Positions 5,005 to 38,331 of a DNA stretch of 43,283 bases are shown here, piece by piece. Under the pieces are notes generated by a model. That model did no database searches. It was not told the DNA's origin and saw nothing but the letters and a program-made list of their open reading frames with translations. Origin of the DNA: Opitutaceae bacterium. GTDB lineage: Bacteria > Verrucomicrobiota > Verrucomicrobiia > Opitutales > Opitutaceae. The stretch spans positions 1 through 43,283 of the forward strand of contig PLTZ01000028.1 in the NCBI GenBank assembly GCA_003164715.1. The letters run 5' to 3'. Position numbers and translations under genes: made by a program. How positions within the stretch are numbered: position 1 is the stretch's first letter; every line of letters begins with the position of its first letter.

Positions 5005-7674
5005 ATGAGCTGGATCCGGCGCCTTCGGTTCAGGCTCAGGACGGTGCTCCGGAAAGGGGCGCTGGATGCGGAGATGGCGGAGGAGCTGCGCGAGCATGTT
5101 GAGCTTCTGACCGAGCGCTACGCGAGGGATGGAATGGCGCCGGAGGAGGCGCTCCTCACGGCCCGCAGGAGGTTCGGCGGGGCCGATCAGATCAGCGAGC
5201 GGTGCCGCGACGAGCGCGGCACCCGCTGGATGGACGGCATCGGGCGTGCGGTCCGCCTCGCGGCGCGAGCGCTGCGCAAGAACCCAGGGTTCACGGCCAC
5301 CGCGGTCGCGACGGTCGCCCTATGCCTCGGCGCCAACCTTGTGATCTTTGCGGTGGCTGACGCCGTCCTCTTTCGGCCGCTGCCGCTGGCCGATGAGGCG
5401 AGGCTGGTGACCCTCATGAACAGCTACCCGCTGGCGGGGGATGTCCGCGCCACCAACTCGATCGCGAACTATTACGACCGTCGCGGCTCCATCCCGGCCT
5501 TCTCGTCGGTCTCCATCTACAAGGAAACCTACCTGACCGTGGGGGGTGCGGACCATCCCAGCCGGGTGGATATCGCGCTCATTTCCCCGGAGTTCTTCTC
5601 AACCCTCGGCGTGCGCCTCGCAAAGGGCAGGCCGTTCACGGAAGCCGAGATGATCGATGGCGCCGACGGGGTCGCGATCTTGACCGACGGGTTCTGGCGC
5701 GGGTACTTCAACGCGGACCCCAACGTGATAGGCCGGTCCTTTCCCAGCAATGGACGCGCCACGACGGTTGTCGGCGTCCTGCCGGCGGCCTTTCACTTTC
5801 CCTCGAGCAGGGCGCAACTCTACCGTCCCCTTGCGCACGGCCCTTACGGGCTCAATCCGTGGATGCGCCACACGGCCAACGGAGGGCCGATGGTCGCGCG
5901 GTTGGCTCCCGGGACAACCCTTGCGGACGCCCAGGCGCAGATGGACGCGTTCAACGCCCTCCAGCTCAAGGACGACCCCATTGCGAAGATTGTCACGGAG
6001 GGCGGGTACTGCACCAAGGTCCTGCCCTTTCGCGGCGACTTTATCCGCGCGGTCAGGCCGATCCTGCTCCTCGTGGAATGCGGCGCGCTCTGTCTCCTGC
6101 TCATGGGGCTGGTGAACCTCGTCAACCTGCTCCTCATTCGGGCCAACGGCCGGGTGCGGGAGGTCGCGGTGCGCAGGGCGCTTGGCGCGGGCAGGGGCCA
6201 CATCATCCTCGATTCGGTTGTGGAGACCTTCCTGATCGCCCTCGGCGGGGGCGCCTTGGGCGCGCTCCTCGGCTACTGGGGTATCCGCGTGCTCGGGTCG
6301 CTCGGGGTTGACCGGCTGCCGCTTGGCGAGTTGATCGGGTTCAATGGGCGCATAGCGGCCGCATCCGTGGCGGCCACGGTCGCGGCCGGCCTTCTCCTTG
6401 GCCTCCCCGTCATTGGGTTCAATCTTGGCTCGAGGCTCGCCGGCGGCCTTCAGGCGGAATCCTATGGGGGCACCTCGGGCCGGAGGATCGGTCGAGCCCG
6501 CGGTGTGTTTGTCGTGGCGCAGGTCGCCCTTTCCTTTGTGCTGCTGATGTGCGCGGGGCTGCTGGGGATGAGCCTGATGCGCATTCTTGAAATACCCCCC
6601 GGATTCACGACGGACGGCATCGTGGCCGGGAAGGTTTCGCTTCCGGACCAGAGCTACAAGGACGCCAAGTCCCAAGTTGAATTCGTCGAGCGGCTGCTGC
6701 CCGCACTTCGCGGGATCCCGGGCGTCGAACTGAGCGCGATCAAGAGCGGATTGCCGTTCACGGGGATCATACCCGAGGGCCCGTTCACCGCGGAGGGGCG
6801 CGCCCCCCGGCCCGGGGACGCGATGCTGCTTCATCAGCATTCCGCCGCGACGAGCGACTACTGGAGGATAATGGGCATCCCGCTGATCGAGGGGCGGCTT
6901 CTTGAGGATTCCGACGAGACGCGCAAGGACGTGGTCTGCCTTGTGGACCAGACGTTTGCCAGGCGCTATTGGCCGGGCGCATCCGCCGTGGGGTGCCGCC
7001 TGGGCATCGGCCTTTCGTTCGACAAGGACCACCCCATCACGGTTGTGGGCGTGGTGGGCGACGTGAAGCAGCACGAACTGACCGAGGATTCCGGCACGGG
7101 CTCGGTCTATTTGCCCTATTCCTTCCTCCTGCACCCGGTCTTTTCGATCGTGGTCCGAAGCTCGCTGCCTGCCGCCGTGGTGGCGCCCATGATGCAGAAG
7201 GCGGTCCACCAGCTCGACCCTCTGATCGTGGTTGCCGACCTGCGGTCCATGCAGGCTTATGTCGACGAGAGCTTCGTTGCGCGCCGGTCCCCAGCCATTC
7301 TCGCCGGGACCTTTGCGGCCATCGCGCTGCTCCTGGCCGCGATCGGCACATTCGGCGTCCTGGGCTACGCCGTTTCCCGGCGGCAGCGGGAGATCGGCGT
7401 GCGCATGGCGCTCGGGGCGCAACCCGCCCAGATCCAGCGGAGGTTCCTCCTCGCCGGCCTGCGCCTCGTGGCTGCAGGCGTCGCATTCGGCTTCCTCGGC
7501 GCGTGGGCCGCCAGCCGTGCGATGCAGGGGGTCCTCTTCGGCATTCATCCGATGAACGGCGTGGCGCTCGCAACCACGGCTGTCATTCTTGTGGCCATTG
7601 CGGTTCCGGCCTGCCTGCTTCCGGCAAGGCGTGCTGCGAACGTCGACCCGTCAACGGTCCTGCGCGCGGAATAG
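5005..7674 (+). CDS. ADOP-type MacB/FtsX permease with N-terminal prefix domain
   Basis: An 889-residue inner-membrane protein. Residues 1-80 form the soluble prefix typical of PadR-linked permeases (EMAEELREHVELLTERYARDG, then ARRRFGG). Next come a first transmembrane helix (about 95-120), a MacB-type periplasmic domain (125-340), three helices of an FtsX unit (about 353-472), a second unit with its helix (502-526), a second periplasmic domain (530-740), and three last helices ending LLPARRAANVDPSTVLRAE. The permease is thus duplicated within one chain and has no ATPase domain, as in acidobacterial duplicated orphan permeases. It starts six bases after padR and so is co-transcribed. By family it could export a drug or lipid, or transmit force to envelope proteins; the substrate cannot be read from sequence. 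Confidence 0.9.
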   Translation: MSWIRRLRFRLRTVLRKGALDAEMAEELREHVELLTERYARDGMAPEEALLTARRRFGGADQISERCRDERGTRWMDGIGRAVRLAARALRKNPGFTATAVATVALCLGANLVIFAVADAVLFRPLPLADEARLVTLMNSYPLAGDVRATNSIANYYDRRGSIPAFSSVSIYKETYLTVGGADHPSRVDIALISPEFFSTLGVRLAKGRPFTEAEMIDGADGVAILTDGFWRGYFNADPNVIGRSFPSNGRATTVVGVLPAAFHFPSSRAQLYRPLAHGPYGLNPWMRHTANGGPMVARLAPGTTLADAQAQMDAFNALQLKDDPIAKIVTEGGYCTKVLPFRGDFIRAVRPILLLVECGALCLLLMGLVNLVNLLLIRANGRVREVAVRRALGAGRGHIILDSVVETFLIALGGGALGALLGYWGIRVLGSLGVDRLPLGELIGFNGRIAAASVAATVAAGLLLGLPVIGFNLGSRLAGGLQAESYGGTSGRRIGRARGVFVVAQVALSFVLLMCAGLLGMSLMRILEIPPGFTTDGIVAGKVSLPDQSYKDAKSQVEFVERLLPALRGIPGVELSAIKSGLPFTGIIPEGPFTAEGRAPRPGDAMLLHQHSAATSDYWRIMGIPLIEGRLLEDSDETRKDVVCLVDQTFARRYWPGASAVGCRLGIGLSFDKDHPITVVGVVGDVKQHELTEDSGTGSVYLPYSFLLHPVFSIVVRSSLPAAVVAPMMQKAVHQLDPLIVVADLRSMQAYVDESFVARRSPAILAGTFAAIALLLAAIGTFGVLGYAVSRRQREIGVRMALGAQPAQIQRRFLLAGLRLVAAGVAFGFLGAWAASRAMQGVLFGIHPMNGVALATTAVILVAIAVPACLLPARRAANVDPSTVLRAE

Positions 7675-7722: not shown

Positions 7723-10119
7723 TTAGTCGGCCCGCAGCGCCTCAATCGGATCAACCCGTGCCGCGCGCCAGGCGGGGAGCCAGCAGGCCAGCGTCGCGGC
7801 CGCGCCGACCGCGGCCGTCCCGGTTAGCAGCGAAAGCGCGCTGAGCGGGTCAATCCCCCAGGCCAGGGAGCGGAGCACGGAGGCCAGGGCGAGCGAGCCC
7901 GCGATGCCGGTGGCGACTCCGATGAGCACCCAGCCGAAGCCCTGCCTGAAGACCAGTCGGAGGATGTTGCGGCGCTCCGCCCCGATGGCCAGCCGCACGC
8001 CGATCTCTCGCGTGCGCTGCATGACGTGATAGGAAAGCGTCCCATAAAGCCCGACGGCGACCAGCCCCAGCGCCGCGGCCATGAAGACGTCGACCATCCC
8101 GGCGACGACGCGCTCCGCCTGGGTGGCCTCGTGGACCACGTCCTTAAGCGTGCGGATGTGGGCCAGTGGAAGGTCGGGGTCCATCGCCGCGAGTTCCCGG
8201 CGCAGCAGCGGCGCGAGCTGCGCGGCCGGATGCGCCGACCGCACCAAGAGGAAGATCCTCTGGCCCCAAGCCCGATCGGGCGTCCAGTACAGCTCGGGCT
8301 TTGGATCGACCGCCGGGCCCCACTGCCTCACGTCTTCTGCGACCCCGACCACGCGGGCGTGGAACCACGCCTTCGGCGTGTCCGGCCGGATGACCTTCCC
8401 CATCGGGTCCTGGCCCGGCCAGCACTTCTCTGCGAGGGCGCGGTTGACGACGACGCCAATGTTGTCCTCGGCGGCGTCTTCGCGCTTGAGCGTCCGCCCG
8501 CGGATCATCCGGATACCAGCCGCGTCGAAATACCCCGGGGTGACGCTGGAGATCTCCGCCAGCACGCGCTCGGTCGAGGAGTCGAATGCCTCATCATTGA
8601 CAAGGATGTTCATGTTGCTGCCGCCCTCGAGCGGGAGCTTTGTCGTGGTGCCGGCGGCGGCGGCGCCGGGCAGCGCGGCCGCGCGCTCGGCAAGCTGCAG
8701 CGCGAAACGCGTGCGCGCCTCGGTCTTCTCGTATGTGCTTCCCTGAAGGTTCACCTCGGCCGAGAGCACGTGCTCGGTGGCGAGTCCCTCGTTCGCCGTG
8801 AGGAGCTTCATGTAGCTTTGCGAGAAGAGCGCGGCGGCGTCGGCGAGGGTGAAGGCGACGGCGACCTGCGCGATGATGAGGCCGCGGAGCAGGTTGTGGC
8901 GGGTCCTGGAGCCGGCGATGCTCCTGCCGTCGCCGCGCATCAGGTCCGCGACGGAAAGCCTCAGCGACGCGAGGGCGGGCGGAAGGCCCGCAAGAAGCGC
9001 GGTCAGAAGGGTAGCGGCCACGGCGAAGGCGAGCACGCGCCCGTCGAGAACCAGGGCCGCCTTGCGCGTGTCGGTTATCGGGGCGATGAACGCCACGATG
9101 CGCACGCCGTAGGCCGCGAGCAGGATGCCGGCGACGGCCCCGCCGAGCGCCAGGATCAGGCTCTCCGTCAGGACGAGCCTCAGGATCCGGGCGCCCGAGG
9201 CCCCCATCGCGACGCGGATCCCGAACTCGCCGAGGCGTCGCGCGCCGCGGGCGAGGAGCATGCTGGCGACGTTGGCGCAGGCCACCAGCATCACGAGGAC
9301 GACGGCGCTGAAGAGCATCCAGACCGAGGGGGCGATGAAGCGGCCCATCTCCTCCTTAAGCGGCCGGATGAAGAAGGGCTTGGTCGCGTTCGTGTCGGGG
9401 TGGAGCACCTTCAGGCGGGCGCCGATCGCCTTGATCTCGGCATTGGCGGCCGCAAACACGACGCCGTCCTTCAGGCGACCGACGCCGCACAGCCAGTGGT
9501 TGCCCCGTTCGCCCTCATCGCGCTTGAGCTGCAGCGGCATCCAGACCTGGCAGGTGTTGGAGTGCATCCACGGCGACGCGAACTCGAAGCCCGCGGGCAT
9601 GACGCCGACAACGGTGGTGTCCGCGCCGTCCAGGCGGATCGTCCGTCCGACAAGGCCGGGATCGCCCCCGAACGACTGCCTCCAGAGGCCGTCGCTTATG
9701 ATGGCGACGGGGGGCGCCCCGGGGACGTCGTCGGCGGCCGCGAACCAGCGGCCCAGCGCCGGGGCGACGCCGAACGCGCGCAGCACGCCGCAGGTGCACA
9801 GGACGCTGCTGACCGCCTGCGCCTTTTCGCCGCCCAGGTTGGCCGACCGGTTGTTGTACGCGCCGAATTGCGCGAACGAGGTGGCCTGTTCGCGCATGTC
9901 GAGATAATCCGGCGTGGACAGGGGCTGGCCCTCGTTGGACCAGAGCTGGACCACCTGGTCCGCGTTCGGGTAGCTGAACGGCTCCACCACGAGGGCTCGC
10001 AGGACGCTGAACATCGCGGTGGCCGCGCCGATTCCGACGGCGAGGGTGAAGGCGGCGATGAGCGTAACCCCGGGGGTTTTCGCCAGGGACCTCAGGGCGA
10101 AGCGCAGGTCGGAGAGCAT
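7723..10119 (-). CDS. ADOP-type MacB/FtsX permease without prefix domain
   Basis: A 798-residue duplicated permease, convergent with the permease at 5005-7674 and only 48 bases from it. It starts directly with the first permease unit (MLSDLRFALRSLAKTPG, the usual beginning in this family), so the ATG at 10119 is preferred to one 29 codons upstream. The first helix is VTLIAAFTLAVGIGAATAMF. A MacB periplasmic domain and a three-helix FtsX unit (including VVLVMLVACANVASMLLARG) follow, and then the second copy ends YHVMQRTREIGVRLAIGAER with helices to LPAWRAARVDPIEALRAD. No ATPase gene is nearby. It is not a recent copy of its neighbour, as sequence and length differ throughout. Confidence 0.88.
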   Translation of the reverse strand: MLSDLRFALRSLAKTPGVTLIAAFTLAVGIGAATAMFSVLRALVVEPFSYPNADQVVQLWSNEGQPLSTPDYLDMREQATSFAQFGAYNNRSANLGGEKAQAVSSVLCTCGVLRAFGVAPALGRWFAAADDVPGAPPVAIISDGLWRQSFGGDPGLVGRTIRLDGADTTVVGVMPAGFEFASPWMHSNTCQVWMPLQLKRDEGERGNHWLCGVGRLKDGVVFAAANAEIKAIGARLKVLHPDTNATKPFFIRPLKEEMGRFIAPSVWMLFSAVVLVMLVACANVASMLLARGARRLGEFGIRVAMGASGARILRLVLTESLILALGGAVAGILLAAYGVRIVAFIAPITDTRKAALVLDGRVLAFAVAATLLTALLAGLPPALASLRLSVADLMRGDGRSIAGSRTRHNLLRGLIIAQVAVAFTLADAAALFSQSYMKLLTANEGLATEHVLSAEVNLQGSTYEKTEARTRFALQLAERAAALPGAAAAGTTTKLPLEGGSNMNILVNDEAFDSSTERVLAEISSVTPGYFDAAGIRMIRGRTLKREDAAEDNIGVVVNRALAEKCWPGQDPMGKVIRPDTPKAWFHARVVGVAEDVRQWGPAVDPKPELYWTPDRAWGQRIFLLVRSAHPAAQLAPLLRRELAAMDPDLPLAHIRTLKDVVHEATQAERVVAGMVDVFMAAALGLVAVGLYGTLSYHVMQRTREIGVRLAIGAERRNILRLVFRQGFGWVLIGVATGIAGSLALASVLRSLAWGIDPLSALSLLTGTAAVGAAATLACWLPAWRAARVDPIEALRAD

Positions 10120-10343
10120 GGCTGGAAATGCGGCAACGTCATTTAGCAGACGGCATTCCAAATTCTCCGCGTTTCCTAGGTTGTTATGGCGGAAATAAAT
10201 CGGCAAGTGCCCGTCCGCAGGAAGCGGGACACGGAATCAAAAATGGGATAATGGCATCCCTGAAATGGGACGCATCCACGGACGTCGCGGCGCACATTGG
10301 ATTGATCCAACGACTCCAAAGTGGTTCGTCTGTTCTCCTCTCC

Positions 10344-15253: not shown

Positions 15254-17764
15254 CTACTCTGTCCTCAGGGCTTCGTTAGGATCGATGCTGGCCGCCCGGC
15301 GGGCCGGAAGGTAGCACGAAGCCACCGCGACGGCGGCCAAGACGAGCGAGACGACCGCGTACGCCCACGGGTCGGTGGGCTTGAGCTCGAAGAGCATGCC
15401 CACCATGAGCCGGCTCAGGAGGACGGCGCTCACGATGCCGACCCCGAGACCGATGCCGGTCCTCCAGAGGCCCTGGCGCATGACCATGCCGAGAATCTGG
15501 GAGCGCGAGGCGCCGATTGCGCCGCGGATGCCGATCTCGCGCGTTCGCTGGGAAATGTCGTAGGCGAGGACGCCGTAGATCCCGATCGCCGAGAGGAAAA
15601 GGGCGAGTGCGGCGAAGCCCCCGAGGAGCAGCATGACGGCCCTCCTGTTGTCGAAGGACTCGTTGATGGCCTTCTGGACCGTGCTGGTGTCAAACAGGGG
15701 CACCGACGGGTCGATCGTCCGCAGCTTTTCGCGCATCGCCGCGGCCATGTCCGCGACGGGGCGCGATGACCTCACGAAAAGGTTCAGCCCATACGGGTTC
15801 GTCGTGAGCAGGGGGTAGTAGATGAACGGGTTGCCGCTCGTGTCCTCGACGCCGTTGTGCGGGACCTGGCGCACGACCCCCACGATCACGGGCCAGTCGC
15901 TCTCCTTCGCGGGGGGCCCTCCGAACGTGAAGTGCCCGCCGACCGCCGAGTGCCCCGGAAAGTACTTCTGCTCAAAGCGCTCGTCGACAATGTAGGCCTG
16001 CCTGGCGCCCTTGGCGGTGTCGGTCTCGTCGAAAAGGCGCCCCTTGAGGAGCTGGATGCGCAGCGTCTTGAAGTACCCGGTGGATACGCCGATCAGGAAC
16101 GCTCCGGGCTGCGGCGAGTCGCGCGGAAGCAGGCTGTCCTTGAGGGTGAGCGCCAGGATACCCAGGCCACCGGTGAACGGGATCCCGGTGGCGAGCGCCT
16201 CACCATCCACGCCCGGTATCTCGGCAAGGCCCTGCTCAAGCCTCCGCTGGAACGCGGTCGCCTTCTCCTGCGCCTGGTACGGGGCCCCCAGGGCGACGCT
16301 GCCGACCTCCAGGTTCTGCGGGTCGAATCCGGGGCTGACCGAGATGGCGTTTGCAAAGCTGTGGATGAGGAGCCCCGCGCCGCTCAGGAGAACGAGCGCC
16401 ACCGCGATCTGGCCCGTCACGAGGACGCTGCTGAGCGCCCGGACGCCCCGCCCCCCGGAGGCGCTGCGCGAGCTGCGGTGGATCACCTCGGCGAGGTTCG
16501 AGCGCAGGATGTGCACGACGGGCACGAGCCCGATCAGAAGGCCCACGGCGACCGAGACGGCCACGCCGTAGAGGAGCACCCCGGTGTCGATCGTGATCGG
16601 CAGCATGTCGGGCAGGAGCCTCTCCGTGAAGTGGTCGATCGCCCGGACGGCGCCCGAGGCGAGGGCGACGCCGATCGCGGCCCCCGCAAGCGTCAGCAGG
16701 AGGCTCTCGACCATAAGCTGCCTTGCGATCGCGCCGCGGCCGGCGCCGAGCGCGGCCCTGATCGCGAGCTCGCTCTGCTGGCCGTTGGCCCGCGTGAGCA
16801 GCAGGTTTGCCACGTTCACGCAGCCGATGAGCAGGACAAAGATCACGCCTCCCTGCAGGAGGTAGAGGGAGGACTTGATCGGCTCGACCCGCTCCGCCTG
16901 GACGAGGCCGATGGAGATCTTGTGGCCGGTCCGGTCGAGGAAGGTCTTCGTGTTGGCGTCGGAGGTGTCGTAGTAATGCTGCTCCAGGCCGGCGACCTCG
17001 GCCAGGGCCTTGCTCTCGGGGGCGCCGGGCTTGAGCCGCGCGTAGAGGTTCAAATTGCAGTAGTACCTCGCCTGCGGATTGACGTCCTCCGGCTTCCACG
17101 AGATCGGCTTAATAAACCTCACCTTGGCGTTGAACCACTCGACGGAATGCGGGGCGACCCCGATGATCCGGTAGGTTGCTCCGTCCACGCGGATCGTCTT
17201 GTCGAGGACTCCGGGATCCTCGTTGTAATGCGACTTCCAGAACGATTCCGTGAGGACGACCACCTTGTCCTCGCCGGGGCGGCAGTTCTTCAGGGTGAAG
17301 AACTGGCCGATGGCCGGCTTCACCCCGAGGACGTCGAACATCTCGGCGGTGCAATCGACTTCCATGATGCGCTCGGCCGAGCCCTTCTCGCCGATCATCA
17401 CCATGTTCGAGGTGCTCAGGGCAACGGCTTCAAAGGACGAGGTGTGCTGCTTGAAGTCAGTGTACTGCGTGAGGTTGCACGGGAAACGGTTGAGGCCCGC
17501 CTTGGGAAAGTTGTTGTAGATCGCCACGATCCGGTTCGGGGCGGGGTAGGGGAGCGGCTTCAGGACGAGGGCGTAGACCATCGAGAAGATGGCCGTGTTC
17601 GCGCCGATGCAGAGCGCAAGCGTGAGCAGCGCAACGGCCGTGAACCCGCGGTCCCTCCAGAGGCGGCGGGCCGCGTACCTCACGTCGCCGGCGACTCCCG
17701 CGCACACCCGGATCACCCACGACTCCCTTCCCAACGCATTCCCAGAAGGTGGCTCGGCGGGCAT
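15254..17764 (-). CDS. ADOP-type MacB/FtsX permease
   Basis: An 836-residue duplicated permease, the third in the window. After a short leader comes VRYAARRLWRDRGF and the first helix ALLTLALCIGANTAIFSMVY (about residues 43-62). Then follow a MacB-type periplasmic domain, the three-helix FtsX unit (GGVIFVLLIGCVNVANLLLT; LAGAAIGVALASGAV), a second periplasmic domain from about residue 480, and final helices from LLLGGFAALALFLSAIGIYG to LPARRAASIDPNEALRTE. There is no prefix domain and no adjacent padR or ATPase gene. The ATG at 17764 is the first in-frame start; a shorter start near residue 20 is possible. The transported or sensed substrate is not known. Confidence 0.88.
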   Translation of the reverse strand: MPAEPPSGNALGRESWVIRVCAGVAGDVRYAARRLWRDRGFTAVALLTLALCIGANTAIFSMVYALVLKPLPYPAPNRIVAIYNNFPKAGLNRFPCNLTQYTDFKQHTSSFEAVALSTSNMVMIGEKGSAERIMEVDCTAEMFDVLGVKPAIGQFFTLKNCRPGEDKVVVLTESFWKSHYNEDPGVLDKTIRVDGATYRIIGVAPHSVEWFNAKVRFIKPISWKPEDVNPQARYYCNLNLYARLKPGAPESKALAEVAGLEQHYYDTSDANTKTFLDRTGHKISIGLVQAERVEPIKSSLYLLQGGVIFVLLIGCVNVANLLLTRANGQQSELAIRAALGAGRGAIARQLMVESLLLTLAGAAIGVALASGAVRAIDHFTERLLPDMLPITIDTGVLLYGVAVSVAVGLLIGLVPVVHILRSNLAEVIHRSSRSASGGRGVRALSSVLVTGQIAVALVLLSGAGLLIHSFANAISVSPGFDPQNLEVGSVALGAPYQAQEKATAFQRRLEQGLAEIPGVDGEALATGIPFTGGLGILALTLKDSLLPRDSPQPGAFLIGVSTGYFKTLRIQLLKGRLFDETDTAKGARQAYIVDERFEQKYFPGHSAVGGHFTFGGPPAKESDWPVIVGVVRQVPHNGVEDTSGNPFIYYPLLTTNPYGLNLFVRSSRPVADMAAAMREKLRTIDPSVPLFDTSTVQKAINESFDNRRAVMLLLGGFAALALFLSAIGIYGVLAYDISQRTREIGIRGAIGASRSQILGMVMRQGLWRTGIGLGVGIVSAVLLSRLMVGMLFELKPTDPWAYAVVSLVLAAVAVASCYLPARRAASIDPNEALRTE

Positions 17765-21963: not shown

Positions 21964-22464
21964 ATGTCTGCCCCATGGAAAAGACTCAGCTTGGCCGCGC
22001 TGGCCACCGCGGCGATGACCGGCTGCTCGGGCACCGACTTTGTCAGCGAGCGTCCGGTCGACAATCCGGTTCCGCCGCTTAAGGCCGGCGTCTATCGGAT
22101 CGAGGCGGTTGACGTGCGCCCCGTGGCGACCCGGGAGGTCGAGCCCGATTATCCCCCTGAACTCGGGTCCATCCTGACCGGAAGCGCCGTTGTCGTGTTT
22201 ACCGTTTGCGCCGATGGCAAGGTGGCGGACGCATCGGTGGTTGAGGCCGCCGACGTCCTGTTTGGCGAGGCTGCGGTCGCGGCGGTCAGGAAGTGGCGGT
22301 TTCGTCCGGCGTTGGTGAAGGGCGCGCCGGTCGACTGCAGGATGACCCTCCCCTTCATCTTCACCTCGCCGTACGGCAGGCTTCCACAGGACGGGTCGGT
22401 GTCCGATGCGCCGAACGGGTCCCCTCCGGACGGCTCCCACCAGACGACGATAGAACCCCGCTGA
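21964..22464 (+). CDS. Lipoprotein with TonB C-terminal-like domain
   Basis: A 166-residue lipoprotein. The signal ends in AAMTGC, with acylation expected at C21. Residues 60-135 match the TonB C-terminal fold as found in 'energy transducer TonB'-type proteins: REVEPDYPPEL, the strand GSAVVVFTVCADGKVADASV and AAVAAVRKWRFRPALVKGAPV. There is no N-terminal transmembrane anchor plus Pro-rich spacer and no exbB/exbD nearby, so it is not a classical TonB. The tail after residue 140 is disordered. It probably works in the periplasm on the membrane surface. Confidence 0.8.
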   Translation: MSAPWKRLSLAALATAAMTGCSGTDFVSERPVDNPVPPLKAGVYRIEAVDVRPVATREVEPDYPPELGSILTGSAVVVFTVCADGKVADASVVEAADVLFGEAAVAAVRKWRFRPALVKGAPVDCRMTLPFIFTSPYGRLPQDGSVSDAPNGSPPDGSHQTTIEPR

Positions 22465-30840: not shown

Positions 30841-31182
30841 GGTTCGTCTCCTTTTGTTGCCAGCTTTCCGTTGCTACGCGCCATTGGTACCAAAGGCCAT
30901 CGCTTTCGCTCCCGGGTACACCGCTCCTGCGGCGCAGGGTGAGCGCGAGCCGAGGCCCGGGAAAGGCCTCCTGAATTCTCGTGCAAACCGGCATCGGAGA
31001 CTCTCTGTATTTGCTGCTCAATGGAAAGCGTTCCAACCCCAGTGAATCAGCGAAACCGAGCGTCGCCGTCGCCACGTGCCTCGAATGGGATCCCTAAGGC
31101 GCATTCCAGCTGACATTTCCGGTTACACCTCGTTTTCGTGTCCGCTTTGGACGATGACGGCAGCCTTAAGGACAAGACCGTG
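30841..31182. promoter_or_regulatory. Divergent promoter region with LacI-type dyad
   Basis: The 342-base region separates the beta-helix gene and the sigma-ExbD gene. It holds the dyad TGGAAAGCGTTCCA at 31022-31035 (arms TGGAA/TTCCA), which resembles the operators of LacI-family sugar regulators. No lacI gene is in the window. An AAGGAC ribosome site at about 31169 serves the sigma gene. Confidence 0.4.
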
Positions 31183-32478
31183 ATGAAAAGCGACATTGAC
31201 CTCCTCCGTAGCTACGTTCGGCACAATTCGGGAGAGGCGTTCACCGAAATCGTGCGCCGCAATATCGGCCTCGTGCATGCGTGCATCCTGTGCCGAGTCG
31301 GAGGCGACACTCATCTTGCGGAGGACGTAACCCAGAGGATCTTCAGCGACTTGGCGCGCAAGGCGCCCGCGCTCACCAAACGGTCATCGGTATCGGGTTG
31401 GCTTTATGTGAGCGCGATGTTGGCCTCGGCCGAGATTGTCCGAAAGGAAAGGCGGCGGAAGGTCCGTGAAATGGAGGCGTCGCGGATGAACGAGATTCTC
31501 GCCCATGACGGAACCCAGACTTGGGAAGAGTGGAGCCAAATCCGCGATCTCCTTGATGACCTCGTTTGCGGGTTGAGTCCGGACGATCGGGACGCGGTCG
31601 TCCTGCGTTTCTTCTCGAAGCGAACCTATTCGGAGATCGCGCAGGACCAAGGCACAACAGAGGAGGGGGCCCGCAAGCGGGTCGAGCGGGCCTTAGAGAA
31701 GCTTCGCCTCAGGCTGGCAACGTCGGGCGTCACTTCCTCCACGGAGGCCCTCGAGGCCGCGCTCGCGAAACACCCGCAGGGCGAGCCCCCGCAAACGCTA
31801 GCGGACCGGGTGGCGGGAGTCGCCATGGCGGAATTCGGCGCCACCGGGGCCGCGACTTCATGGCTCCTTTCGCTGGCCAGGGCCCTGGTCTCTAGACCAA
31901 CAGCGACAGGTTTGGTCTTTGTTGCCGCCGCGCTCGTGGTGGGATGGCAGCACCACAAGAACGCACTCCTGGAGGCGCAGACGGGCCGCCTAAACAGTCA
32001 GGCTGAGCAGATCCGATGGCTGGAGAACGAGAACCGGAAGCTGACCCATGCGATCTTCGAGGCCGAAGACCTTCGCAGGACGCTCGCGGAAATCCCCGCG
32101 CCCTTGACTGGTCCGGATAGCGGTGCGCCGGCCGGTCGGCCCGCCGCAGCGCCGCTCAATGTAAACGTGACTTCCGAAGGGCGGATCCTCTGGGAGAACG
32201 AACCGGTGACACTCGAGGGGTTCCTTGACAGGTTGGTCGCATCCCACGCACAGGACCCCTCATCCGAAACTCAGCTCATCATCCAAGGGGAGCCTGGGGT
32301 GGAGTTCTCGGCCGCAGCCTACGTCGTGGAGCAGGCCAGCAAGGCGGGGTTCCACGACATTGTTGTCAACAGCCGTTCATCGCCTGGTGTTACCGACAAC
32401 TGGGTTACCCTGCCGTCCACGCAAATCCCGGTAGGGGACAAGGCGCCTCCGACGTTGCCCGATGTGACCGCAAAATGA
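31183..32478 (+). CDS. ECF-type sigma factor fused to a membrane anchor and ExbD/TolR-like domain
   Basis: A 431-residue protein with four parts. Residues 5-180 are a sigma-70 ECF-like factor: region 2 (EAFTEIVRRNIGLVHACILC and DVTQRIFSDLARKAP) and region 4 (LSPDDRDAVVLRFFSKRTYS then EEGARKRVERALEKLRLRL). Residues about 240-256 are one transmembrane helix (ATGLVFVAAALVVGW). Next is a coiled coil (RLNSQAEQIRWLENENRKL). Residues about 324-395 match the ExbD/TolR periplasmic domain in order of strands: PLNVNVTSEGRILWENEPVT, a helix (LEGFLDRLVASHA), QLIIQGEPGVEFS and VVEQASKAGFHDIVVNS. ExbD itself has a cytoplasmic N-terminus, one helix and this domain outside, so the topology fits. The next gene overlaps by ATGA. 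The ATG at 31183 is preferred to the GTG at 31138 because of AAGGAC and typical sigma starts. Confidence 0.85.
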   Translation: MKSDIDLLRSYVRHNSGEAFTEIVRRNIGLVHACILCRVGGDTHLAEDVTQRIFSDLARKAPALTKRSSVSGWLYVSAMLASAEIVRKERRRKVREMEASRMNEILAHDGTQTWEEWSQIRDLLDDLVCGLSPDDRDAVVLRFFSKRTYSEIAQDQGTTEEGARKRVERALEKLRLRLATSGVTSSTEALEAALAKHPQGEPPQTLADRVAGVAMAEFGATGAATSWLLSLARALVSRPTATGLVFVAAALVVGWQHHKNALLEAQTGRLNSQAEQIRWLENENRKLTHAIFEAEDLRRTLAEIPAPLTGPDSGAPAGRPAAAPLNVNVTSEGRILWENEPVTLEGFLDRLVASHAQDPSSETQLIIQGEPGVEFSAAAYVVEQASKAGFHDIVVNSRSSPGVTDNWVTLPSTQIPVGDKAPPTLPDVTAK

Positions 32479-33197
32479 AGCTGATTTCCGCACTTGTATT
32501 CACAGTCGGCGCAGCCTCGGGGATCTATTGGGGAGTGGAGAGGCATGATGCAGCCCTGCTTCAGAGCCGCCTCGACGCGGCCAGGGACCGGCAGGATGAG
32601 ATCGATCGGCGGCGCCTGGAGCACGACAGGCTGCTTCGGCTCCAACCTGCCGCAGGCGAGTTGGAGCGCCTCCGCGCCGAGGTCCGGAGGGCCCGCCAGG
32701 ACGGCCGCTCTGCCGACCCGCAGGCGAATTCCAGGGTGGATTCCTTGAGGCCGGGCTTCTGGGCCCCCGCATCGACATGGCGGGACCAAGGTCGGGCGAC
32801 CCCGGAGGCCACCTTGGAGACCATGCTTTGGGCGGCATCCGGAGGGAATGTCTCTGCCCTAAAGAACGTTTTGATCCTTGCTCCGGAAACGCGCACGAAG
32901 GCTGCGGAGATGATTTCCGGCCTTCAGGGAGCATCCCGACAGCAATTTGGGAGCCCCGAGGATCTCGTGGCCGTCATCGTTGCCGGGAGTCTACCGCTCG
33001 ATAGCGCGCAGCTGGTTGCCCGACAGCAAAATCAGGACGACCAGGCGATCGAGTATCTCAGGCTAAAGGATTCAAGCGGGATTACGCGGCAGGTCTTTCT
33101 CTCGCTTCAGAAGAGCACGGACGGGTGGAAGCTGATCGTGCCGCCAAGCGCGATCGAGCCCGTGGCCAAAGACCAGGGCGATCCGAGAATTCCCTAA
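32475..33197 (+). CDS. Membrane-anchored coiled-coil partner of the sigma-ExbD gene
   Basis: A 240-residue protein whose ATG overlaps the stop of the sigma-ExbD gene (ATGA at 32475-32478), so translation is probably coupled. Residues 4-20 are a membrane anchor (ISALVFTVGAASGIYWG), residues 25-75 are a long charged coiled coil (LQSRLDAARDRQDEIDRRRL), and the C-terminal part has a helix-rich unit starting with RATPEATLETMLWAASGG and a domain ending DGWKLIVPPSAIEP. I cannot name the family; similar ATPEA..LWA stretches occur in tails of long sigma factors of this phylum as I recall them. The plain reading is a subunit or regulator of the sigma-ExbD protein, maybe facing the periplasm. Confidence 0.7.
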   Translation: MKLISALVFTVGAASGIYWGVERHDAALLQSRLDAARDRQDEIDRRRLEHDRLLRLQPAAGELERLRAEVRRARQDGRSADPQANSRVDSLRPGFWAPASTWRDQGRATPEATLETMLWAASGGNVSALKNVLILAPETRTKAAEMISGLQGASRQQFGSPEDLVAVIVAGSLPLDSAQLVARQQNQDDQAIEYLRLKDSSGITRQVFLSLQKSTDGWKLIVPPSAIEPVAKDQGDPRIP

Positions 33198-34961: not shown

Positions 34962-36086
34962 TCAGCGCGACGGCACCAAGGTGTATTTTCTGCTGCGACC
35001 ACCGCGGGAACCCGGCTTCAAGACGCCAGCCCCAATCAGATGCTTGATATCGCGCAAAGCGGTGTCGAGGGAAGCGCCGGCAAGTTTGGCGTATTTCGAT
35101 GTGGAGAGTTCCTCGTCGCCATTATCGAGAAGGGCGTTCAGCACTTTCCGCTGCCGCTCATTGGGCTCAACCCGCTTATTGAGCTGCTCCCAGCGAGCCG
35201 CCTTTGCCATGATGCGCTTGAGCGTGCCGGCTGCGCCAACAACGGAGCGCTCGAAGCATCCGACAAACCATTCAAGCCAGCCGGTGATACTGAGCGTGCC
35301 TTTCTGCGAAGTCTCCAGGATGCGGTAATACTCCTGCTTCTCCCTCTCGATCTGGGCGGACATGCTATAGAAGCGCATGGCAGACCCCTCCGACCGGGCC
35401 AAGGCCATGTCCGCAATTGCGCGCGATACGCGCCCATTTCCGTCCTCGAATGGGTGCAGGGTCACAAACCAGAGGTGGGCGATGGCGGCTCGCAGCACCG
35501 GGTCTGTTCCATCGGCGGTCTCGAACCATTTCAGGAACGCGGCCACTTCGCCGGTCAACCGGCTCGCGGCCGGGGCTTCAAAGTGAATGTGCTTGCGGCG
35601 AATCCGGTCGCGGCTGATGGGTCCGGAAACGACCTGCATGGGGTCCATGGCCGGTGTGCGCCATTTGCCGACAGCTATGCGTTGTATGCCGCTGCGCCCG
35701 GCCGGAAAGAGGGAAGCCTGCCATCCGAGCAGGCGGTCTTCGGTGAGCGGCTGGTCGTAGTGCTGGGTGGCGTCGAGGATCATATCGACAGCACCTTCGA
35801 CATCCCGGTCTGAGAAGCCCTCCTTTTCGGGGGGGAGTCCCATGCGACGCGCAATCGACGAGCGCACCGATGCCGGGTCAAATATCGTCCCTTCGATCGC
35901 GCTAGACTTGGTCACTTCGTCTGCGAGGTTCTCAAGGTTGGTCTGCTGTCGAAACTGGAAACCAAGGCTCAGCATTCCTCCTAGCAATAAACCCTGTTGA
36001 TGTCTGGCATTCCCGAGAATGGGCATCAGTCTTTCGTAATCCCATTGGAAGTGAGGCCACTTGGGTAACTGATGGATATAATGCAT
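34962..36086 (-). CDS. Fic family protein with N-terminal self-inhibition motif
   Basis: A 374-residue Fic protein. Residues 1-80 look like the DUF4172-type N-terminus and contain the inhibitory motif S61-S-A-I-E65-G66. The Fic core has H211 in HPFEDGNGR, complete for AMP transfer. The C-terminal 80 residues form a winged helix (RQRKVLNALLDNGDEELSTS, then ASLDTALRDIKHLIGAGVL), so the protein can probably bind DNA. With the inhibitory helix in the same chain, it belongs to the class II layout, and no separate antitoxin gene is required. Three inverted repeats directly upstream are likely operators, perhaps for its own winged helix. GC content is lower than in the region to the left. Confidence 0.9.
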   Translation of the reverse strand: MHYIHQLPKWPHFQWDYERLMPILGNARHQQGLLLGGMLSLGFQFRQQTNLENLADEVTKSSAIEGTIFDPASVRSSIARRMGLPPEKEGFSDRDVEGAVDMILDATQHYDQPLTEDRLLGWQASLFPAGRSGIQRIAVGKWRTPAMDPMQVVSGPISRDRIRRKHIHFEAPAASRLTGEVAAFLKWFETADGTDPVLRAAIAHLWFVTLHPFEDGNGRVSRAIADMALARSEGSAMRFYSMSAQIEREKQEYYRILETSQKGTLSITGWLEWFVGCFERSVVGAAGTLKRIMAKAARWEQLNKRVEPNERQRKVLNALLDNGDEELSTSKYAKLAGASLDTALRDIKHLIGAGVLKPGSRGGRSRKYTLVPSR

Positions 36087-36412: not shown

Positions 36413-37957
36413 TCATTCCTGTGTTTGAAAGCTCTTCGCTATGCGGTCCTCTAAGTCGACCAATTGCTCACGTCGGTTTGTGCCGAATCCTAAGACGTAT
36501 CCGAGTGTGCCGTCAGGAATCATATAGTGCCGACAGGACCAGCGTCCCCCGTCCGTACTAGCTTGATCGAAATCTAGTGTTACAATTTCTTTCGACCCGA
36601 TGGTCGTCTTCCCAACAACAAAATTTCCAAAGCCTCCTTTGGCTAAGATATTTTGCATCGTGTCGAGCCACTCTGTGAGGGATTGCTTAGGATCGCGCGG
36701 CTGCCGAAATACGATGAGTAGGTTGTGGACGCCATTTTCGTGAGATTCGAAGCGCACCACTTCGTAAGGGCTGTTCGCGGAGACCGGCGGGAATCGGTTC
36801 CAGTTCGTGGGCGTATTGATCGAGAATTTCCACTCCGAGTTCTCGTAGTGTTTTAGCTCGGTCACCGTCAGTTGACCGGCTGGCAAGGACGGTGCTGGCT
36901 GCGCCGTGTCGGTGTTGGAGGCTTTCAACTTGCTGGTCGCTGCCGCTAAGACGACAAGGCCGATGAGGCAGCAGCCCGATGCGAATCGGGAGAAGCTAGA
37001 CGTTCTGAATTGTGCGATCATATGGATTCTCTGTTCTATCTGTTGTTTGCCCCCAAGTATTCCGAGGACGGCAGCGGGAGCATTCCTGTGCTGAACTGTT
37101 GCGAGCACTTTCAGGATGGTCTTGCCGTAAACATCCGGGCGTGATGTAGCCACGTGGGCCAGCACGAATTCGTCGCACGCAAGTTCACAGTCCAAACGGG
37201 CCATTCCGGCGAAGAGCCACGCCGCTGGATTAAACCAATGCACCGCCAGAGCGCATTGGACCAACAAGTTGGCTGCTGCGTCCCTGCGGCACCAATGCCC
37301 AAGTTCATGGAGAATGACCAACCGGAACTCCTCGTCTGAAAGCTGCGCTCCCAGAGACGGGGGAATGACCAAATACGGCCTCCAAATCCCTCCCATCGCC
37401 GGCCCTACGGCAGCGTCGCTTTCAAACACGAGAATTGGCGCCCTAATTCCGAGCATTTGCGCACAATCCTCGATGGCAGAAACGTACTTGGGATTGACCG
37501 GAGCGACAGACTGGCCCAAGCGACTCCGAAACCGATGCCACAAGCGACCGCGGGTCAGTATCAAGGCAACGGCTCCAACCAGCCAGATTAAAGCGGTCAC
37601 AGAGGCGGCGCTCAGGAAGAGTTCCGAACCGCGGCCGGAGTGAACTGCCGGGGAAACCGTTAAACCAAGATTCGAGACGAGGTTCTGAATGCCACGGCTT
37701 GTGGCACCTGTGGCAACATCAATGACTTCGAGTCGCCCCGGAATACCCTTATGCGCGAAGGAGACCGGGTTCCAGGCGATGGGTATCGTAACCGGGAACA
37801 ACAGCGCGACGGCGACTATTATCCAAACACCAAAAAGCAGCTGCTGCGGGACTCGGCCCCTAATTGCCCATCTCAATACTCCCAAGATACAAATTAAACA
37901 GCCGATCTTCCATGATTGAGCGACGACAGTTGAGAACGCCGCATCTATGATTTTCAT
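36413..37957 (-). CDS. BlaR1-like M56 family membrane peptidase
   Basis: A 514-residue membrane protein. Four helices occupy the N-terminal half (GCLICILGVLRWAIR; LLFGVWIIVAVALLFPVTIP; AASVTALIWLVGAVALILTR). The M56 zinc site is H217-E218-L-G-H221 with E258 in LDCELACDE. A further helix (FASGCCLIGLVVLAAA, about 318-335) leads to an outside domain (about 365-514: SEWKFSINTPTNWNRFP, RWSCRHYMIPDGTLGY) of the DUF1795/PsbP-like type. It has no penicillin-binding sensor domain, so the signal is something other than beta-lactam. It overlaps blaI by ATGA (37957-37954) and probably cleaves or releases that repressor. Start: the ATG at 37957 follows a GGGGGG ribosome site. GC content is low here. Confidence 0.87.
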   Translation of the reverse strand: MKIIDAAFSTVVAQSWKIGCLICILGVLRWAIRGRVPQQLLFGVWIIVAVALLFPVTIPIAWNPVSFAHKGIPGRLEVIDVATGATSRGIQNLVSNLGLTVSPAVHSGRGSELFLSAASVTALIWLVGAVALILTRGRLWHRFRSRLGQSVAPVNPKYVSAIEDCAQMLGIRAPILVFESDAAVGPAMGGIWRPYLVIPPSLGAQLSDEEFRLVILHELGHWCRRDAAANLLVQCALAVHWFNPAAWLFAGMARLDCELACDEFVLAHVATSRPDVYGKTILKVLATVQHRNAPAAVLGILGGKQQIEQRIHMIAQFRTSSFSRFASGCCLIGLVVLAAATSKLKASNTDTAQPAPSLPAGQLTVTELKHYENSEWKFSINTPTNWNRFPPVSANSPYEVVRFESHENGVHNLLIVFRQPRDPKQSLTEWLDTMQNILAKGGFGNFVVGKTTIGSKEIVTLDFDQASTDGGRWSCRHYMIPDGTLGYVLGFGTNRREQLVDLEDRIAKSFQTQE

Positions 37958-38331
37958 TTGCCCCCCTTTTTTAATTCGAGGATCTGCTCCAGCTGTTTGA
38001 TTTCGTAATCGGATAGCTGGGCCTTCTCGCAAAAATGGAGCATCAGCGAACCTGAGGCTCCCTGGAAAACCTTCTTCAAGAAGGTATCTCCCTCAGCTGC
38101 TACACACTGTTCCCGGCGCAATCGCGGTGCATAGAGATTTGTGTTCCCGAGCTTTGTAACGGTCAGCACCTTCTTCGCCACAAGCCGAGTAAGGAATGTG
38201 TTTACAGTCTTTTGCTTCCAACCCCGCTTCTCCGGCAGCCCCCCGTAAACTGTAGCCGAAGTCACCGGGGACGAATGCGCCCACACTACATTCATCACCT
38301 CCCATTCAGCAGATGAGATTTTTGGATTCAT
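37954..38331 (-). CDS. BlaI/MecI-family repressor
   Basis: A 125-residue winged-helix repressor: KISSAEWEVMNVVWAHSSPV (residues 3-22), then KTVNTFLTRLVAKKVLTVTK with the wing, and a helical dimer part ending LSDYEIKQLEQILELKKGGK. The ATG at 38331 fits the family start (MNPKISSAEW) and follows AGGA at six bases. A longer in-frame start is not supported. The peptidase gene starts at its stop (ATGA). In this family the repressor binds TACA/TGTA dyads, and two such sites lie just upstream, one next to the ribosome site, so autoregulation is expected. Confidence 0.92.
   Translation of the reverse strand: MNPKISSAEWEVMNVVWAHSSPVTSATVYGGLPEKRGWKQKTVNTFLTRLVAKKVLTVTKLGNTNLYAPRLRREQCVAAEGDTFLKKVFQGASGSLMLHFCEKAQLSDYEIKQLEQILELKKGGK

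Follow-up and report, generated by a model that had tools for sequence, protein, structure and literature searches.

A membrane-anchored ECF-type sigma factor with an ExbD-like outer domain and a conserved membrane partner in Opitutaceae

What does a sigma factor do with a piece of the Ton machine, the motor that drives nutrient uptake through the outer membrane? The state of this machine is known to reach gene expression mainly through receptor-anti-sigma cascades such as FecA-FecR-FecI. In one contig of an Opitutaceae bacterium (the window, 43,283 nucleotides; genome G000, assembly GCA_003164715.1, contig PLTZ01000028.1), a first-pass annotation read a single gene as a sigma factor joined to a membrane helix, a coiled coil and an ExbD/TolR-like domain, and coupled to a gene for a second membrane protein. 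It further proposed that the sigma factor takes the place of ExbD's short cytoplasmic tail. Our analysis bears out the sigma factor, its membrane anchor, the ExbD/TolR-like domain on the outer side and the coupling to a membrane partner, and it argues against the tail model.

The reading frame of the fusion is open and unbroken from a GTG at 31138 to 32478 (446 aa). Residues are numbered here from this GTG, and subtracting 15 gives the numbering of the first-pass annotation, which began at the ATG at 31183. The ATG is the better start because a methionine is in line with it in all ten aligned fusions described below. Pfam finds both sigma-70 regions. The region 4 match (residues 145-190, E 1.5e-9, 37.6 bits) is above its cut-off, while the region 2 match is only just over. 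The ECF superfamily model of NCBIfam, TIGR02937, scores 70.1 bits against a cut-off of 42.9, and the sigma part of the AlphaFold model also pairs with ECF sigma structures in Foldseek. By profile and model, then, the window protein is a predicted ECF-type sigma-70 factor with regions 2 and 4 present, as first read (Table 1).

Table 1. Coordinates of the fusion gene, its partner and their parts in the window
Feature	Position	Strand	Size or residues	Basis
Fusion gene (sigma, TM, putative coiled coil, ExbD)	31183..32478	+	431 aa from ATG 31183	
Sigma-70 region 2	31252..31458	+	39-107 of the 446-aa frame	Pfam PF04542, 24.4 bits (cut-off 24)
Sigma-70 region 4	31546..31707	+	137-190	Pfam PF04545 and PF08281
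Transmembrane anchor without acidic residue	31882..31941	+	about 249-268	Hydropathy
Putative coiled-coil stalk	31942..32091	+	about 269-318	Helix in AlphaFold model; conserved N299 and L302
Predicted ExbD/TolR periplasmic domain	32107..32367	+	324-410 (Pfam); strands and helices 340-412 (model)	Pfam; AlphaFold model
Overlap ATGA of stop and next start	32475..32478	+		Read in sequence
Partner gene (N-terminal TM, coiled coil, NTF2-like C-terminal domain)	32475..33197	+	240 aa	
Partner NTF2-like domain	32760..33179	+	about 96-235	

Beyond the sigma regions, a single segment of the window protein exceeds the hydropathy threshold, and it falls where a transmembrane helix had been placed (about 240-256 in the earlier numbering, 255-271 in ours). 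A coiled coil had been read after it. The model indeed has a long helix there, at 257-318, and its Asn and Leu (299 and 302), conserved in the alignment of fusions, would suit a dimeric coiled coil, so that the helix stands and its coiled-coil nature is probable. The whole model is of moderate overall confidence (pLDDT 69.7, pTM 0.30).

Is the outer domain really an ExbD domain? The Pfam match to PF02472 is barely over the cut-off (26.2 bits against 25.4) and spans positions 39-123 of the 128 in the profile, which is the periplasmic part and not the ExbD helix. Seven of the ten fusions pass this cut-off, eight match at E<=1e-3 and all ten at E<=1. A profile of the ten fusions matches ExbD periplasmic domains of known structure in the PDB (8pek, E 5.2e-4; 7ajq, 9.3e-4), and the ExbD matches improve to 1.2e-4 and 1.7e-4 when the C-terminal part alone is used as the profile. 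In the AlphaFold model the C-terminal elements follow the order strand 340-344, strand 350-352, strand 355-357, helix 359-372, strand 380-384, helix 390-402 and strand 408-412, which is that of ExbD, with block pLDDT values of 70-88 over residues 341-410. Foldseek matches the ExbD structures 8p9r, 8vgd and 8vgc at E 1.2e-3 to 2.0e-3, and its ExbD pairings have TM-scores by target of 0.74-0.77 and an rmsd of 2.4-2.5 over 73 columns. Position 410, in the last strand, is hydrophobic in nine of the ten fusions. A chance match is ruled out by Pfam, the PDB profile, the fold and conservation together. We conclude that the outer domain is, as predicted by profiles and model, a genuine ExbD/TolR periplasmic fold. 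The ExbD/TolR domain that the first-pass annotation put at about 324-395 was thus borne out by both the profile search and the structure prediction it had called for.

We next consider how widely the fusion occurs. A profile of the first three fusions found ten full-length fusions in eight genera among 252 genomes of the family, a lower bound, with up to seven candidates scored per genome. These matches score 384-738 bits over nearly the whole profile; the best other match, at 350 bits, ends at position 325 of 419, and some lower matches extend to position 367-369. Across 147 further loci with 140 distinct sigma frames, no frame was found to carry ExbD apart from the ten fusions already known and copies of them. 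Among 387 genomes of the phylum, with up to four candidates scored per genome, full-length fusions were found only in the genome of the window and in G015. A profile running from anchor to ExbD, used on the same 387 genomes with up to nine candidates scored in each, matched 34 genomes (33 in the family, one outside) and returned G000, G015 and frames of 142-309 residues that match the ExbD part only. An assembly fault or a frameshift that joined two genes is ruled out by homologues in eight genera. One homologue sits in a single-contig genome of 5,957,605 bases (G015), which we take to be Opitutus terrae PB90-1.

The survey also covered the neighbouring gene, and the partner lies directly after the fusion in 10 of 10 cases. 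The ATGA overlap noted in the first-pass annotation is present in the window, and a 4-nt overlap of this kind also occurs in L077, L053 and L078; in the five other measured cases the partner starts 1-10 nt past the fusion stop, so that the gap ranges from -4 to +10 nt in nine measured cases. In G118 the partner frame is broken. The window partner has a transmembrane helix from its first residues and then a long helix, as expected from the earlier description of a 240-residue membrane coiled-coil protein, and it ends in an NTF2-like domain that this description did not include. No Pfam family matches the protein. The NTF2-like assignment comes from a fold match to 3k7c (E 1.3e-4, TM-score by target 0.65, but rmsd 5.9), which is followed in the search by PBP2a chains and by further NTF2-type chains at weaker E. 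The partner was considered as an anti-sigma factor and rejected, since its helix starts within the first residues and leaves almost no cytoplasmic part.

Beyond the pair, no neighbour is conserved throughout the ten contexts, whose lengths differ. A metal-dependent hydrolase, recognised by eye, recurs in three of the ten, as does a further upstream gene group, and a Fic gene recurs in two. In the window a Fic/DUF4172 gene (34962-36086) is downstream of the pair; in G118 the Fic-like gene is on the other side of the fusion. A gene for an M56 (BlaR1-type) peptidase (36413-38032) lies about 3.2 kb downstream of the pair on the other strand; it is the only peptidase gene identified near the window fusion, and the other contexts are without it. 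Elsewhere the window encodes three large MacB/FtsX-type permeases (5005-7674, 7723-10206 and 15254-17764).

Does the outer part do anything at all? It could be passive, a tail that merely tethers or stabilises the sigma factor, or the fusion could be decaying. Tail identity to the window sequence is low (25-43%), the fusion is rare (the ten in 252 genomes being a minimum), and one partner gene is frame-broken. The ExbD match and the partner are nevertheless retained across eight genera, and we regard a passive outer part as improbable.

The fusion belongs to a larger set of sigma factors. We gathered 71 sigma frames from matches in 95 genomes and from fetched stretches, a set of best matches rather than an exhaustive one (67 of the frames entered the Pfam scan). 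Two of the 71, L012 and L013, are ordinary short sigma factors, and 68 of the remaining 69 have a hydrophobic segment above threshold. Their outer parts differ. Pfam finds TonB_C in 14 of the 67 frames, serpin in one, SLBB in one and ExbD at E<=1e-3 in two, the third fusion of the set being weaker. With custom profiles on the 71 frames, TonB_C is found in 15, and the partner's NTF2-like domain is itself fused to sigma in seven. Because the outer parts differ across this anchored family, we conclude that the window gene is one variant among anchored sigma factors with exchangeable outer modules. The genome of the window has a TonB_C-type member as well, L009, with its own partner.

The family and its surroundings hold several further arrangements. 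In L039 (1528-3561) an anchored-family sigma factor is fused to a serpin (Pfam E 2.6e-94, profile positions 2-370 of 370), and L051 (9219-10502) carries an SLBB domain on an anchored paralogue. L050 and L051 (G035:C102) and L059 (G076:C1) are dense clusters of anchored paralogues, several with differing outer parts. On the contig of L069 (G000:C59) a 559-residue frame at about 6132-7376 has several tandem TonB_C domains (four by custom profile) and shares the contig with an anchored sigma paralogue; similar frames occur in other genomes. The window has a TonB_C domain of its own at 22174-22365, inside a 170-residue frame (51.3 bits).

The modules bear on where the C-terminal domain lies, for the charges that flank the anchor helix do not fix its orientation. 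The Ala-rich stretch before the anchor might form a hairpin with it, which would leave the C-terminal domain in the cytoplasm; some paralogues show two hydrophobic segments, and model confidence is low at residues 210-258. The window protein, however, has its single segment over threshold, and TonB_C, SLBB and serpin, the other outer modules of the family, are normally extracytoplasmic kinds. A hairpin is therefore most improbable, and the C-terminal part of the fusion is presumably periplasmic.

Which sigma factors keep the partner? A partner gene follows 23 of 25 sigma genes of the TonB_C or ExbD type and 0 of 36 of other types. This comparison uses 61 rows with room downstream, from 78 (the 71 frames and seven further fusions, the latter scored as partner-positive from the adjacency result in all ten fusions). 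The 17 rows left out are two short ordinary sigma frames, one short sigma row, seven lacking downstream room and seven NTF2-fused paralogues, four of which are likewise followed by a partner-like gene. The association is weaker than Fisher's p (8e-15) suggests, because the rows are related, and only two independent contrasts lie on well-supported branches. In the sigma-domain tree nine of the ten ExbD-type rows form one clade (SH-aLRT 100) with L079 apart, and a single clade of all ten is not rejected (AU p 0.714). TonB_C-type rows need seven changes on the best sigma tree and two on supported branches; outer modules and sigma domains therefore seem to have been reshuffled.

Does the protein then work as an ExbD? 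On the first-pass model, a working ExbD with a sigma factor as its tail would sit in the ExbB/TolQ pore and be moved by proton flow. A real ExbD periplasmic domain and a single transmembrane helix fit this model. However, the ExbD match covers the periplasmic domain only and leaves out the transmembrane helix; the anchor is common to non-ExbD paralogues and belongs to a sigma family whose scanned members mostly carry other outer modules. Moreover, none of the ten fusions has D or E within its 19 most hydrophobic residues (in L077 and L079 these residues are not the aligned anchor, which by eye is also without D/E), whereas 34 of 37 free ExbD frames, and five of six in the genome of the window, have the usual aspartate motif. 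Passages of PMC9249621 describe the aspartate of the ExbD transmembrane helix as important for activity. Its absence alone is not decisive, because three divergent free ExbD frames are also without the motif, including L007 of the same genome, which is beside exbB. No ExbB gene is on the contig of the fusion in nine of the ten cases, several of these contigs being short, and in G015, a single contig, the nearest is about 359 kb from the fusion. Since the match skips the membrane helix, the anchor is a sigma-family trait without an acidic residue and no ExbB is nearby, direct coupling of the fusion to proton flow is unlikely, and we consider the model of a working ExbD very unlikely as a whole. 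It would be wrong to classify the protein as an ExbD, though its outer domain is one. As for L007, its ExbD-like frame beside an exbB gene (G000:C1, C1:3116-3469) has similar frames in G220 and G127.

Where did the outer domain come from? On another contig of the same genome, C78, Pfam matches reveal an operon of exbB, exbD1, exbD2 and tonB. When 48 ExbD domains are placed in one tree, the ten borne by sigma factors form one clade (bootstrap 99, SH-aLRT 97) that groups with eight ExbD1 rows, drawn from eight fusion genomes (90/95), while ExbD2 and other free ExbDs fall apart from this group. Bootstrap support for the grouping with ExbD1 is only 90, the alignment has 88 columns, and the branches of the fused domains are long. 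The best free ExbD match in the own genome is also ExbD1 (8.6e-26), followed by ExbD2 (1.5e-11) and then 4.6e-6. By tree and by score, ExbD1 of the C78 operon is thus the nearest relative of the fused outer domain. Free ExbD1 has the motor helix with its aspartate and adjoins exbB, and the fusion has neither. The exbD1-exbD2 pair is found in eight of the ten fusion genomes; none was seen in G220 and G264, with completeness 83 and 91. All ten fusion genomes have TonB_C, ExbD, ExbB and TonB-dependent receptor matches (8 to 55 receptor matches per genome), and therefore the machine to be read is present.

The TonB side is less clear. A TonB_C tree of 42 of 67 rows, with tandem-repeat, short and two partial sigma rows dropped, is mostly unresolved, and the derivation of all sigma-borne TonB_C domains from one operon TonB is accordingly unsupported. 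L056 groups with the operon TonB of its genome, G015 (100/95), and six of the eight operon TonBs fall in a loose group (81/81) together with L023, L009 and L045. By eye, all eight aligned operon TonBs have a D-box-like segment that follows just after the transmembrane helix and ends in proline; the D-box pattern itself matched only three of the eight. A different capture may be seen in L265 (G035:C70:227000-231500, minus strand), where a frame of 796 residues appears, judged by eye, to join a BlaR1/M56 peptidase, a coiled coil and a C-terminal ExbD. In the tree its ExbD falls with another lineage of free ExbDs, apart from that of the sigma fusions, and signalling proteins may therefore have captured ExbD twice.

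How might such a protein act? By computation, the chain combines sigma regions with a single anchor helix, then a long helix and an ExbD fold; the ExbD module is one clade beside ExbD1, and the gene forms a conserved two-gene unit with an anchored NTF2-like partner. According to passages of PMC10907165 and PMC12215075, the free ExbD dimer captures one strand of the TonB D-box in the groove between its two domains. This strand capture, together with the helix and the last-strand features of the fusion, leads us to propose that the window protein is an ECF-type sigma factor, anchored in the membrane as a single chain, which acquired the ExbD1 periplasmic domain of a Ton operon of this family and reads the Ton machine, a proposal on which we would place an even bet. 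The coiled coils of fusion and partner would pair, and the ExbD domains would form a dimer that takes up a beta strand from a Ton component, with the TonB D-box as the likeliest candidate; alternatively, the domains might pair with free ExbD1. Occupancy of this site, sensed jointly with the partner as a co-sensor, would either keep the sigma domain at the membrane or set it free, release perhaps occurring by proteolysis as in IutY. TonB_C-type paralogues would read the same machine from its receptor-facing end.

The module could instead have been co-opted for another ligand, such as peptidoglycan or an envelope protein, so that the protein would be a membrane-tethered sigma factor with a periplasmic sensor and the Ton link would be lost. 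Outer modules in the family are many and unrelated (serpin, SLBB, TonB_C, NTF2-like), the long branches of the fused domains fit a change of role, and TolR, a relative, binds peptidoglycan according to PMC4646322. However, TonB_C and ExbD, the two partner-associated modules, come from a single machine, and the tree joins the ExbD module to ExbD1 of the Ton operon. We regard this alternative as possible but doubtful. Returning to the reading of the Ton machine, a broader and tentative version, one we think rather less than probable, holds that Opitutaceae have connected the Ton motor directly to RNA polymerase. Membrane sigma factors bearing duplicates of the machine's two strand-capturing parts (the ExbD periplasmic domain, which would grip the TonB D-box, and TonB_C, which would grip the receptor Ton box), together with a shared NTF2-like partner, would report Ton engagement and need neither a signalling domain in the receptor nor an anti-sigma factor of its own chain.

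How does the fusion compare with known systems? Single-chain sigma factors with membrane regulators have precedents. Passages of PMC8999054 describe IutY (ECF243, Pseudomonas putida) and groups ECF48, ECF52 and ECF53 as sigma factors fused to membrane regulators, and IutY as released by proteolysis. Like IutY, ECF52 and ECF53, the window protein has a sigma domain, a transmembrane helix and a part that is presumably extracytoplasmic in one chain. IutY and ECF48/52/53 carry an anti-sigma part (FecR-like or zinc-binding), whereas the fusion has an ExbD domain and a separate NTF2-like partner instead. No such anti-sigma Pfam family was found in the window protein or among the 25 commonest of 26 families across the fusions, and no anti-sigma gene was identified beside the window fusion. 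A divergent built-in anti-sigma domain in the fusions is possible. Sigma groups of Planctomycetes include ECF01-Gob and ECF57.

The FecA-FecR-FecI system likewise connects the Ton machine with an ECF sigma factor, as passages of PMC9249621 describe. There the signal passes from the signalling domain of the receptor to a separate anti-sigma factor, neither of which is in the conserved two-gene unit of the fusion, and in the fusion a Ton part is built into the sigma factor. Among the matches listed, the receptor gene closest to a fusion on its contig is about 13.5 kb away (G220). One-component transmembrane transcription regulators, which are DNA-binding regulators, offer another comparison. Like the fusion, they are membrane-bound transcription factors, and passages of PMC10269533 describe them as responding to extracellular information; the word sigma is absent from the main text of that paper.

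Among the matches listed in the open-access literature searched, judged by title and the start of the abstract, none describes a sigma factor fused to ExbD or TonB_C. The words TonB and ExbD are absent from the main text of the review of single-chain sigma factors (PMC8999054), and the passages of PMC9249621 make no mention of an ExbD- or TonB-sigma fusion. Single-chain, membrane-anchored ECF sigma factors with anti-sigma parts are thus already known, and the ExbD outer module and the NTF2-like partner appear to be new.

What does this mean for these bacteria? Our findings suggest that gene expression could be wired directly to the Ton motor in some Opitutaceae. If this is true, a sigma factor that bears a Ton part would be the shortest route from the state of the Ton machine to gene expression. 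The anchored sigma family, with many members in some genomes and swappable outer domains, amounts to a set of natural modular switches from the outside to transcription, in a phylum that has been little studied.
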